From NCBI GenBank assembly GCA_020216805.1, contig JAIWNN010000040.1, positions 1-14,776 on the forward strand: a stretch of 14,776 bases of DNA, in the 5' to 3' direction. Of the stretch, positions 1-8,607 are shown in pieces; position 1 is the first letter of the stretch, and every line of letters starts with the position of its first letter. Made by a program: the position numbers and the translations under genes. Source of the DNA: Desulfarculus sp. Lineage in GTDB: Bacteria > Desulfobacterota > Desulfarculia > Desulfarculales > Desulfarculaceae. The notes beneath the pieces were generated by a model. The model saw only the letters and a program-made list of their open reading frames with translations, was not told where the DNA came from and did not search any database.

Positions 1-612
1 GAGCGGATTTTCGCGGTCATTTTTCTTCATCCAGGCCACCATCGAGGCCCCGCCCTTGCTCACCAGGCCGCCGTAACGGTAGCCCTGGCGTTCCAGACGC
101 AGCAGGGTCTCGCGGTTGATGCCGCAGTGCACGGCCATGAAGCTGATGCCGTCGGCGCACTGACGTTCGATGAGGTCGAAAAGCATCTCCGCGTCCAGCT
201 TGCCCGGGTCGCCGTACTTTCGCTCGGCCTCGGCAAACGCCTGGTAAAGCGGCACGTTGCCCACCGGCAGTTCCACCGCCGCCAGGACCTCGCGCCGCAC
301 CAGGTCCAGATCGCCGCCCACGCTCAGCTCCATCAGGGTGTCGGCCCCGGCGGCCTGGGCGGCCCGGGCCTTGTCCACCTCGGCCGCCACGTCGCAGATG
401 TCGGTGCTGGTGCCGATGCTGGCGTTGACCTTGGTGGCCAGCCCCCGGCCGATGCCCACCACCCGGGCTGGGCGGTTGCTGTTCAGGGGCACCACGATCT
501 GACCATCGACGATGCGCTGGCGCACCAGCTCCGGCTCCAGGCCCTCGACCTCGGCGATGGTCCGCATCTCCTGGCTGATCTGTCCGGCCTTGGCTATCTC
601 CAAAATGCCCAT
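1..612 (-). CDS. bzaF: ThiC-family radical SAM enzyme, probably BzaF (5-hydroxybenzimidazole synthase); partial, C-terminus outside window
   Basis: 204 N-terminal residues are visible and the frame runs off the left edge. The start ATG (610-612) has an AGGAGG-like site at 621-625, 8 nt upstream. Recognisable ThiC-family stretches are VNASIGTSTD, LSVGGDLDLVRREVL, VGNVPLYQA, MAVHCGINRETLLRL and GLVSKGGASM, ending in KKNDRENPL. The radical SAM cysteine cluster of this family lies near the C-terminus and is not in the window. ThiC converts aminoimidazole ribotide (AIR) to the thiamin pyrimidine HMP-P; the paralogue BzaF converts AIR to 5-hydroxybenzimidazole, the lower ligand of anaerobic cobamides. 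I prefer BzaF because the leader is a cobalamin riboswitch with a terminator, whereas thiC normally carries a TPP riboswitch. Family membership is secure; the choice BzaF over ThiC is inference from regulation. The short N-terminus, lacking the extension of E. coli ThiC, fits the ~430-residue anaerobe type, which includes both enzymes. Confidence 0.85.
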   Translation of the reverse strand, partial: MGILEIAKAGQISQEMRTIAEVEGLEPELVRQRIVDGQIVVPLNSNRPARVVGIGRGLATKVNASIGTSTDICDVAAEVDKARAAQAAGADTLMELSVGGDLDLVRREVLAAVELPVGNVPLYQAFAEAERKYGDPGKLDAEMLFDLIERQCADGISFMAVHCGINRETLLRLERQGYRYGGLVSKGGASMVAWMKKNDRENPL

Positions 613-692
613 GCCAAATTCCTCCGCTCTGGCACAATGCTGACCCGGCGACCCACCACGGACCCGGTGCGCCCACCGACGCACCAGGCGGG

Positions 693-740
693 AAACAAAA
701 AAGGCAAATCCCCGATCCTTGTTTGGATCGGGGATTTGCC
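693..740 (-). terminator. Intrinsic terminator of the cobalamin riboswitch expression platform
   Basis: A perfect 16-bp inverted repeat (703-718 with 725-740, 6-nt loop) is followed on the minus strand by a U-rich tract (complement of 693-702). It lies between the B12 aptamer and the ThiC-family start codon, so it is placed to stop the transcript when cobalamin is bound. It is the strongest terminator in the window. Confidence 0.9.
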
Positions 741-763
741 ATCTCCCTCCACCGGGCTCGACA

Positions 764-970
764 AGGGGCGGCAGGTCTTCTGGCTGGTGGATCGTCCTAC
801 TCCCCGCGCCTTCCCGTCAGCCTTGGGCCTCACAAAGGCCGTGACCGGCAGTGGCTTCCTCGCGGGTTTCGTCCCCACTCACAGCGGCGGGTCCGCGCCG
901 GATTCGCACCGGCTTCCCTCGAGCGCCCCCGCCAGGGGGCGACCGTCCCTCGGGCTAGATTGTCGCCCCC
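764..970 (-). ncRNA. Cobalamin (B12) riboswitch
   Basis: Reading the minus strand, the B12-box core lies at 882-920, with GAAGCCGGTGCGAATCCGGC followed by CCGCCGCTG. A GGGAAGG segment lies at about 809-815, and the conserved 3' part AGCCAGAAGACCTGCC lies at 770-785. The closing helix P1 can form between 964-969 (GGGGCG) and 765-770 (CGCCCC). These are the hallmarks of the adenosylcobalamin-class aptamer. A promoter lies directly upstream and an intrinsic terminator directly downstream, so a transcriptional OFF switch for the ThiC-family gene is the simplest reading. Confidence 0.93.
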
Positions 971-7622: not shown

Positions 7623-7641
7623 TGGGTCCAAATTCAGGCAT

Positions 7642-7732
7642 GCTGGGGGAGCCACAAACGGCTGAGAGTACGCCCGGTGGTCGGGTGTAGACCCCTTGAA
7701 CCTGTTGGGTAATTCCAGCGCAGGGAAGCAGC
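7642..7732 (+). ncRNA. TPP riboswitch (THI element)
   Basis: The conserved core is present in order: GGGGGAGCC, GGCTGAGAGTA (7660-7670), then CCTTGAACCTGTTGGGTAAT and CCAGCGCAGGGAAGC (7715-7729). The closing helix P1 can form from GCTG (7642-7645) and CAGC (7729-7732). It senses thiamin pyrophosphate and sits directly upstream of thi4, a thiamin-thiazole gene, as expected. Confidence 0.97.
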
Positions 7733-7824
7733 CGTCGCTCCTTTGGTCGGAGTTTCAAGGGGCCGGTTTCCCACGCGGAAGCCGGCCCCTAAGCCTTTGG
7801 CGGCCGGCGGAAGGGAGCAAGATC
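7733..7824 (+). promoter_or_regulatory. thi4 leader with probable anti-Shine-Dalgarno expression platform
   Basis: The segment GCTCCTTT (7737-7744), right after the aptamer, can pair over 8 bp (one G-U) with AAGGGAGC (7811-7818), the ribosome-binding site of thi4. It can instead fold locally, CTCC (7738-7741) with GGAG (7749-7752). Between them a 12-bp hairpin (7758-7769 with 7779-7790) brings the ends together. This hairpin has no U-tract, so translational control is more likely than termination. The pairing scheme is inference. Confidence 0.5.
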
Positions 7825-8607
7825 ATGCTGGACGAGGTCATCATCACCAGGGCCATCATCAACCGCTATCTGGAGAAGCTCAACGACCACCTGGAGGTCG
7901 ACGTGGCCATCGTGGGCGGCGGTCCGGCCGGCCTGGTGGCGGGCTACCACCTGGCCAAGGCCGGGTGCAAGACCGCCCTGTTCGAGCGCAAGCTCTCCAT
8001 CGGCGGCGGCATGTGGGGCGGCGGCATGATGATGAACGAGATCGTGGTCCAGGAGGAGGCCAAGCGTCTCCTGGACGAGGTGGGGGTGACCACCCGGGAG
8101 TTCCAGCCCGGTTACTACACCGCCGGCAGCGTGGAGTGCGTCAGCGCCCTGACCTTCGCGGCGGTCAAGGCCGGGCTGACGGTCTTCAACCTGGTCAGCG
8201 TGGAGGACGTGATGCTGCGCGACCAGCGGGTGGTGGGCCTGGTGATCAACTGGACCGCGGTGGAGATGGGCGGCCTGCACGTGGACCCCCTTACCATCCG
8301 GTCGCAATACACCATCGACGCCACCGGCCACGCGGCCGAGGTGGTCAACGTCATCGGCCGCAAGGTGGACGCGGAGCTGAACACCAAGACCGGCAAGTTC
8401 GTGGGCGAGCGCTCGCTCTGGGCCGAGGTGGCCGAGAACCACACCCTGGACAACACCCGCGAGGTCTTCCCCGGGGTCTACACCGCCGGCATGTGCAGCA
8501 ACGCCACCTTCGGCTCCTACCGCATGGGGCCGGTCTTCGGCGGGATGCTCTTGAGCGGCGAGAAGGCGGCCCAACTGGTGGGCCAGCGGCTGCGCGCCGG
8601 CGACTAG
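7825..8607 (+). CDS. thi4: Thi4-type thiazole synthase (sulfide-dependent ADP-thiazole synthase)
   Basis: 260 residues. The ATG at 7825 is chosen because GGGAG lies 7 nt upstream and the TPP riboswitch occupies the earlier in-frame region. The FAD/NAD-binding Rossmann motif is [21 protein letters not shown] from about residue 28, followed by [18 protein letters not shown], a Thi4 signature, and the C-terminal glycine-rich dinucleotide part [12 protein letters not shown]. Thi4 builds the thiazole of thiamin from NAD and glycine plus sulfur. Eukaryotic suicide Thi4 donates sulfur from a Cys; in the aligned segment here (MGGLHVDP) that position is His152, as in the methanogen enzymes that use free sulfide catalytically with Fe(II). 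This implies an anaerobic, sulfide-rich cytoplasm. A ribose-1,5-bisphosphate isomerase annotation is sometimes given to archaeal relatives but does not fit the TPP riboswitch. Confidence 0.93.

Follow-up and report, generated by a model that had tools for sequence, protein, structure and literature searches.

The locus described here raises the question of what a ThiC-family gene does behind a cobalamin riboswitch, i.e., whether it belongs to thiamin synthesis or to the anaerobic synthesis of a cobamide lower ligand. The window, by which we mean the whole stretch of 14,776 nt analyzed, corresponds to an entire contig (G000:C134) of a Desulfarculus assembly comprising 1.83 Mb in 171 contigs and estimated as 55% complete. 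At its left end, a ThiC-family frame (Pfam ThiC, E 4.3e-69) opens with an ATG and is still open at the contig edge (position 1), covering 204 of about 435 codons (Table 1). The 3' half of the gene was not found in the assembly, where the sole other ThiC match is a complete gene. An earlier note had proposed that the gene body is of the ThiC family, that the leader consists of a B12 aptamer with a terminator, and that the product is probably BzaF. These observations were confirmed by the Pfam and Rfam matches and by folding, and the interpretation is most likely right as well, supported by clade placement, active-site residues and a separate ThiC, from which we infer the enzyme activity itself. 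Three outcomes were named in the note as refuting it, and none of them was observed: the protein groups apart from ThiC, another copy exists in the genome, and thiamin genes do not follow bzaF in the relatives scanned.

Table 1. Coordinates of the features in the window
Feature	Position	Strand	Basis or remark
bzaF, 5' part (204 codons), putative 5-hydroxybenzimidazole synthase	1..612	-	cut by contig end; search, tree and residue evidence
Ribosome binding site GGAGGA, 7 nt before the ATG at 612	620..625	-	read from sequence
Intrinsic terminator (expression platform): stem 740-703, U-rich tail 702-693	693..740	-	folding and terminator scan
Cobalamin (B12) riboswitch aptamer, RF00174	753..962	-	Rfam match
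TPP riboswitch, 56.2 bits	7635..7743	+	precedes Thi4-family gene

The aptamer lies on the strand of the gene, 140 nt from its start codon, and spans the whole RF00174 model (1-189) with 96.7 bits, versus a gathering score of 31.5. The terminator is a perfect stem of 16 pairs with a 6-nt loop and the tail TTTTTTGTTT. One terminator-like site was counted between 560 and 1100, versus a mean of 0.5 in shuffles; this count is by itself unremarkable, and the stem length is what stands out. The fold energy of the leader is 3.7 standard deviations below that of 100 shuffles. The earlier note was also correct in reporting a true TPP riboswitch in the same window, behind which a Thi4-family gene is found, the two together occupying 7635-8607.

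A search with the fragment matched 22 of 40 relatives, with one or two ThiC-family matches per matched genome. Sixteen of the 40 have a copy 73-93% identical to the fragment, whereas the remaining matches, of the ThiC type, are 36-47% identical over it. Two matches were obtained in 16 relatives, with one of each type in 15 of these and two ThiC-type matches on different contigs in G010. The closest relative is the congener G005, whose protein is 93% identical over the fragment. For the phylogeny, frames other than the window fragment with fewer than 330 aligned residues were removed, as were duplicate sequences, and a quick tree was calculated from 76 of the 148 rows kept, together with four plasmid ThiC proteins. 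In this tree of 80 proteins, calculated without BzaA, BzaB and GSU3005 sequences, the fragment falls inside a 52-row clade (SH-aLRT 100, stem of 1.44 changes per column), where it adjoins G005; the outgroup is not coherent, with the Thermus ThiC apart from the other three, and the root is uncertain. The fragment thus stands apart from ThiC, and its placement within ThiC is rejected at a cost of 48 log-likelihood units (p-AU 0.0002; quick tree of 73 rows, with seven long-branch rows omitted, one of them from the clade). One locus assigned to the genus of the window (L042, genome G003) encodes a BzaF only about 75% identical to that of the window, and its contig copy (L052) groups with another genus, a possible transfer or misplacement.

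The source genome has a true ThiC in addition to the bzaF fragment. This complete gene, on contig 84, is the only other ThiC match there and is preceded by thiDN (ThiD and ThiN domains) and by a TPP aptamer, which is located before thiDN and farther upstream of ThiC. Across 20 loci with short flanks, TPP aptamers were found before ThiC in only two.

Active-site residues were compared between 96 clade members and 51 ThiC proteins. The AIR and SAM contacts, as listed for Arabidopsis ThiC in PMC4389238, were mapped through conserved motifs with spacing matching the published numbers (N228/G230, D383/R386 and S342/R343/G344). Position 228 is S in 96/96 clade members and N in 51/51 ThiC proteins, position 343 is K in 96/96 versus R in 51/51, and position 383 is N in 96/96 versus D in 51/51; according to that source, N228 and D383 are AIR contacts and R343 is a SAM contact in solved ThiC. 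In the window fragment, positions 228 (S) and 343 (K) are both clade-type, and position 383, past the contig end, is N in G005. The clade and ThiC do not differ at Y286, H322, S342, R386, E422, E489 and the Caulobacter Cys474, while at L259 conservation extends to 95 of the 96 clade members. As a possible BzaF marker, the catalytic Cys474 of Caulobacter ThiC was expected to differ, yet it is kept in 96/96 clade members and was discarded for that use. Sixteen columns (N228S, R343K, D383N and 13 others) are at least 95% uniform yet different between the groups, and the four of them inside the window are all clade-type; at 80% uniformity, the window has nine discriminating columns, eight clade-type and one ThiC-type. 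The C-terminal 4Fe-4S cysteine motif reads CTMCGKFC in G005, and its counterpart in the fragment lies past the contig end. The cluster motif is CX2CX3C in L003 (9784-11082) and in clade proteins such as G005, and CX2CX4C in plant and Caulobacter ThiC. The clade resembles ThiC in family, in the phosphate-contact residues and Cys474 and presumably in substrate. A tentative idea, which we hold to be rather doubtful, is that N228S, R343K and D383N act as a switch steering the radical cascade on AIR to 5-hydroxybenzimidazole and not to the thiamin pyrimidine.

The arrangement of the leader recurs in related genomes. Using Rfam, an aptamer was located next to the gene for 13 of the 16 relatives. As for the remaining three, L037 shows a cut aptamer at the contig end, the contig of L046 ends 70 nt upstream of the gene, and bzaF of G014 is separated from its aptamer by a 15.8-kb insert carrying an integrase. 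In this last genome (L044 8893-8923, L204 8709-8733), leader sequence following the aptamer recurs at both insert ends, 13 nt of it exactly; the integrase is phage-type, and the riboswitch leader may be an attachment site. For the named clade loci, a model (R1) was built from 14 aptamers; its computed structure is crude (36 pairs), and it works mostly by sequence. With R1, 68 of the 78 loci were found to have a same-strand aptamer no more than 600 nt upstream, and setting aside loci with 250 nt or less of upstream sequence gives 68 of 76. Two Collinsella loci (43% identity) were excluded from the 78, and four of the 68 aptamer loci (L052, L053, L054 and L061) share their contigs, judging by length, with sequences of the R1 building set. 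No aptamer was found by R1 upstream of ThiC in 55 ThiC loci, where most flanks extend ~1.5 kb at most and a few duplicates are included (e.g., L022 and L049), and a single one was located downstream of its ThiC gene. A hand-written B12-box pattern (27/97 clade rows, 0/51 ThiC rows) was dropped, as it missed the Rfam-positive L050 and L051. With 68 of the 78 clade loci having the aptamer immediately ahead of the gene, cobalamin-aptamer control is normal for the BzaF clade, and the arrangement in the window is an ordinary one in its bacterial group. Terminator-like hairpins were found in only 7 of 14 leaders (in most, 300 nt were scanned without a located start codon), and control is therefore not always by termination. 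In six of eight Geobacteraceae-type loci the aptamer lies 4.4-5.3 kb upstream, whereas in the window bzaF is the first gene after an aptamer and a terminator of its own. For Geobacter, PMC545781 describes a large cobalamin locus under the control of B12 elements. No description of a bzaF with its own aptamer was found in the part of the bzaF and riboswitch literature covered, to which the founding 2015 work does not belong.

Genes of cobamide synthesis accompany several clade members. Eight clade genes from genomes placed in one family with a record titled Geobacteraceae are 69.5-72.3% identical to the nearest full-length relative of the window gene. In the tree, they group with a Desulfuromonas assembly and Geothermobacter hydrogeniphilus; the copy of the titled record itself (L149) is found elsewhere in the clade, apart from these eight. 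It is through these Geobacteraceae-type genes that the window gene resembles the BzaF of Geobacter sulfurreducens (GSU3005), which makes 5-hydroxybenzimidazole (PMC7726332), and that of Geotalea daltonii (Geob_0543). For the latter, the order cobU-cobT-cobS-cobC-cbiA-bzaF beside cbiMNQO is given in PMC13119186. Locus L192, the annotated one among the eight, runs cobA-like, cobT, cobS, cobC, cbiA, bzaF, cbiC-like, cbiD, cbiET and cbiG-like, where the cobA, cbiC and cbiG assignments fall below curated cut-offs; thus, the published order from cobT to bzaF recurs (the reference proteins being compared by description) and the next genes, cbiC-like and cbiD in L192, differ.

In the scanned relatives, the genes downstream of bzaF are cobT, a methyltransferase, TerC or a PfkB-kinase group, with no thiamin genes; those of the window gene itself lie past the contig end. 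Directly downstream is cobT in L041 and L045, whereas in L039 cobT is separated from bzaF by an O-methyltransferase; a methyltransferase-DUF2284 fusion follows in L042, TerC is next in L036 and L038 (scanned congeners), and G005 has a small uncharacterized protein and then a PfkB kinase. Three congeners that were scanned (G001, G002 and G005) showed no cobamide gene immediately after bzaF. After bzaF, L035 (232-2383) encodes a small protein, a PfkB kinase, a small protein and a thioesterase-like protein (families assigned in L035), and similar runs occur in L043, L044, L050 and L051. A Methyltransf_2 protein comes directly after bzaF in L039 (8402-9454), L042 (7534-9276) and L046 (2222-3883), fused to DUF2284 in the latter two. 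This bzaF-linked O-methyltransferase is a candidate for a non-orthologous BzaC making 5-methoxybenzimidazole. Among 30 relatives (a set without G018, whose L046 has a similar gene), the L039 methyltransferase has counterparts at the bzaF loci of G003 (64% identity) and G021 (43%). In the same search, a close copy was not found in the source genome or G005, where the best matches reach 32%, and plain 5-hydroxybenzimidazole is therefore predicted as the ligand, the source genome being incomplete.

The source genome contains three further cobalamin aptamers, one of which precedes a cbiK-btuCDF-like-cbiA set and another a TonB receptor. A search for cobT gave no match in this assembly, which is 55% complete; G005 has one. 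As an aerobic alternative, BluB was considered and rejected, since 0/40 relatives pass the cut-off; the best match in the source genome, a nitroreductase-family gene, scores 109 bits versus a cut-off of 150.

In some genomes only the BzaF-type copy was found. The 15 genomes behind named loci comprise 11 with two ThiC-family matches and four with one, the single copy being BzaF-type in three of the four (Desulfopila aestuarii, Desulfamplus magnetovallimortis and a Thermoleophilia assembly). For G004 and G066 (L199), too, a copy of the BzaF type was obtained but a true ThiC was not, and the same holds for the matches in G046, G049 and G053 (loci L150, L148 and L147). Such genomes may have no HMP synthesis of their own, the other copy may be missing from the assembly, or the enzyme may serve both pathways.

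Based on sequence evidence, the gene is best explained as bzaF, a predicted single-gene anaerobic 5-hydroxybenzimidazole synthase in an uncultured Desulfarculus relative, to which we give a probability of about 0.9, because of the identity within one family, the clade and AU test, the residue changes, the cobamide operons and the aptamers. The absent 3' half, the lack of a cobT match, the ThiC cut-offs passed and the BzaF-type-only genomes count against it. The last two points, together with the retained Cys474, would suit a second thiamin ThiC under cobalamin control, or an enzyme serving both pathways: the top scores come from ThiC models, full-length clade proteins exceed the curated NCBIfam cut-offs (566-573 versus 410 and 523-539 versus 460), and the fragment, being cut, reaches 229 bits of the 410. 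No BzaF model occurs among the curated profile matches of the fragment and the clade proteins. However, the tree and AU test, the changes at AIR and SAM contacts, the position of clade members in cobamide operons and the true ThiC with a TPP riboswitch in the same genome all speak against a thiamin role, which we regard as improbable.

Membership of the same superfamily and a BzaB match of the fragment (215 bits) could also point to one half of a BzaA/BzaB pair. As described in PMC8123684 and PMC6461909, BzaA and BzaB of Moorella and Eubacterium are likewise ThiC-like 5-hydroxybenzimidazole enzymes, but they are encoded by two genes, whereas the 22 matched relatives have one or two matches each with no tandem clade pair seen, and with the BzaB model (TIGR04386) four full-length relatives reach 498-511 bits, below its cut-off of 700; half of such a pair is thus very unlikely. 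Least probable of all, to the point of being hardly credible, is an accidental position of a riboswitch controlling something else. The other cobalamin aptamers of the source genome would allow for it, but the strand and distance to the start codon, the recurrence in relatives and named loci, and the absence upstream of ThiC (in flanks of mostly ~1.5 kb at most) argue for a functional link to the gene.

With bzaF as the preferred reading, plentiful cobamide would bind the aptamer, the terminator would form and bzaF would be switched off, and under scarcity transcription would read through the terminator into bzaF. BzaF would then convert AIR (aminoimidazole ribotide) by radical SAM chemistry, most likely to 5-hydroxybenzimidazole, which CobT and CobS would attach as the lower ligand, the end product probably being 5-hydroxybenzimidazolyl cobamide. 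As for ThiC, the differences extend to regulation, with a cobalamin aptamer at the window gene versus a TPP aptamer.

The case adds another probable BzaF to an already known family, mostly labelled ThiC in databases: among 120 protein matches listed, three carry the name 5-hydroxybenzimidazole synthase, and all others with a name are called ThiC or phosphomethylpyrimidine synthase. By combining regulation, tree and active-site residues, a gene mostly called thiC is assigned to cobamide lower-ligand synthesis. The uniform active-site differences are the part deserving follow-up, as this residue set offers a simple means of distinguishing between BzaF and ThiC in genome data and a point of departure for understanding how two homologues make different products from one substrate.
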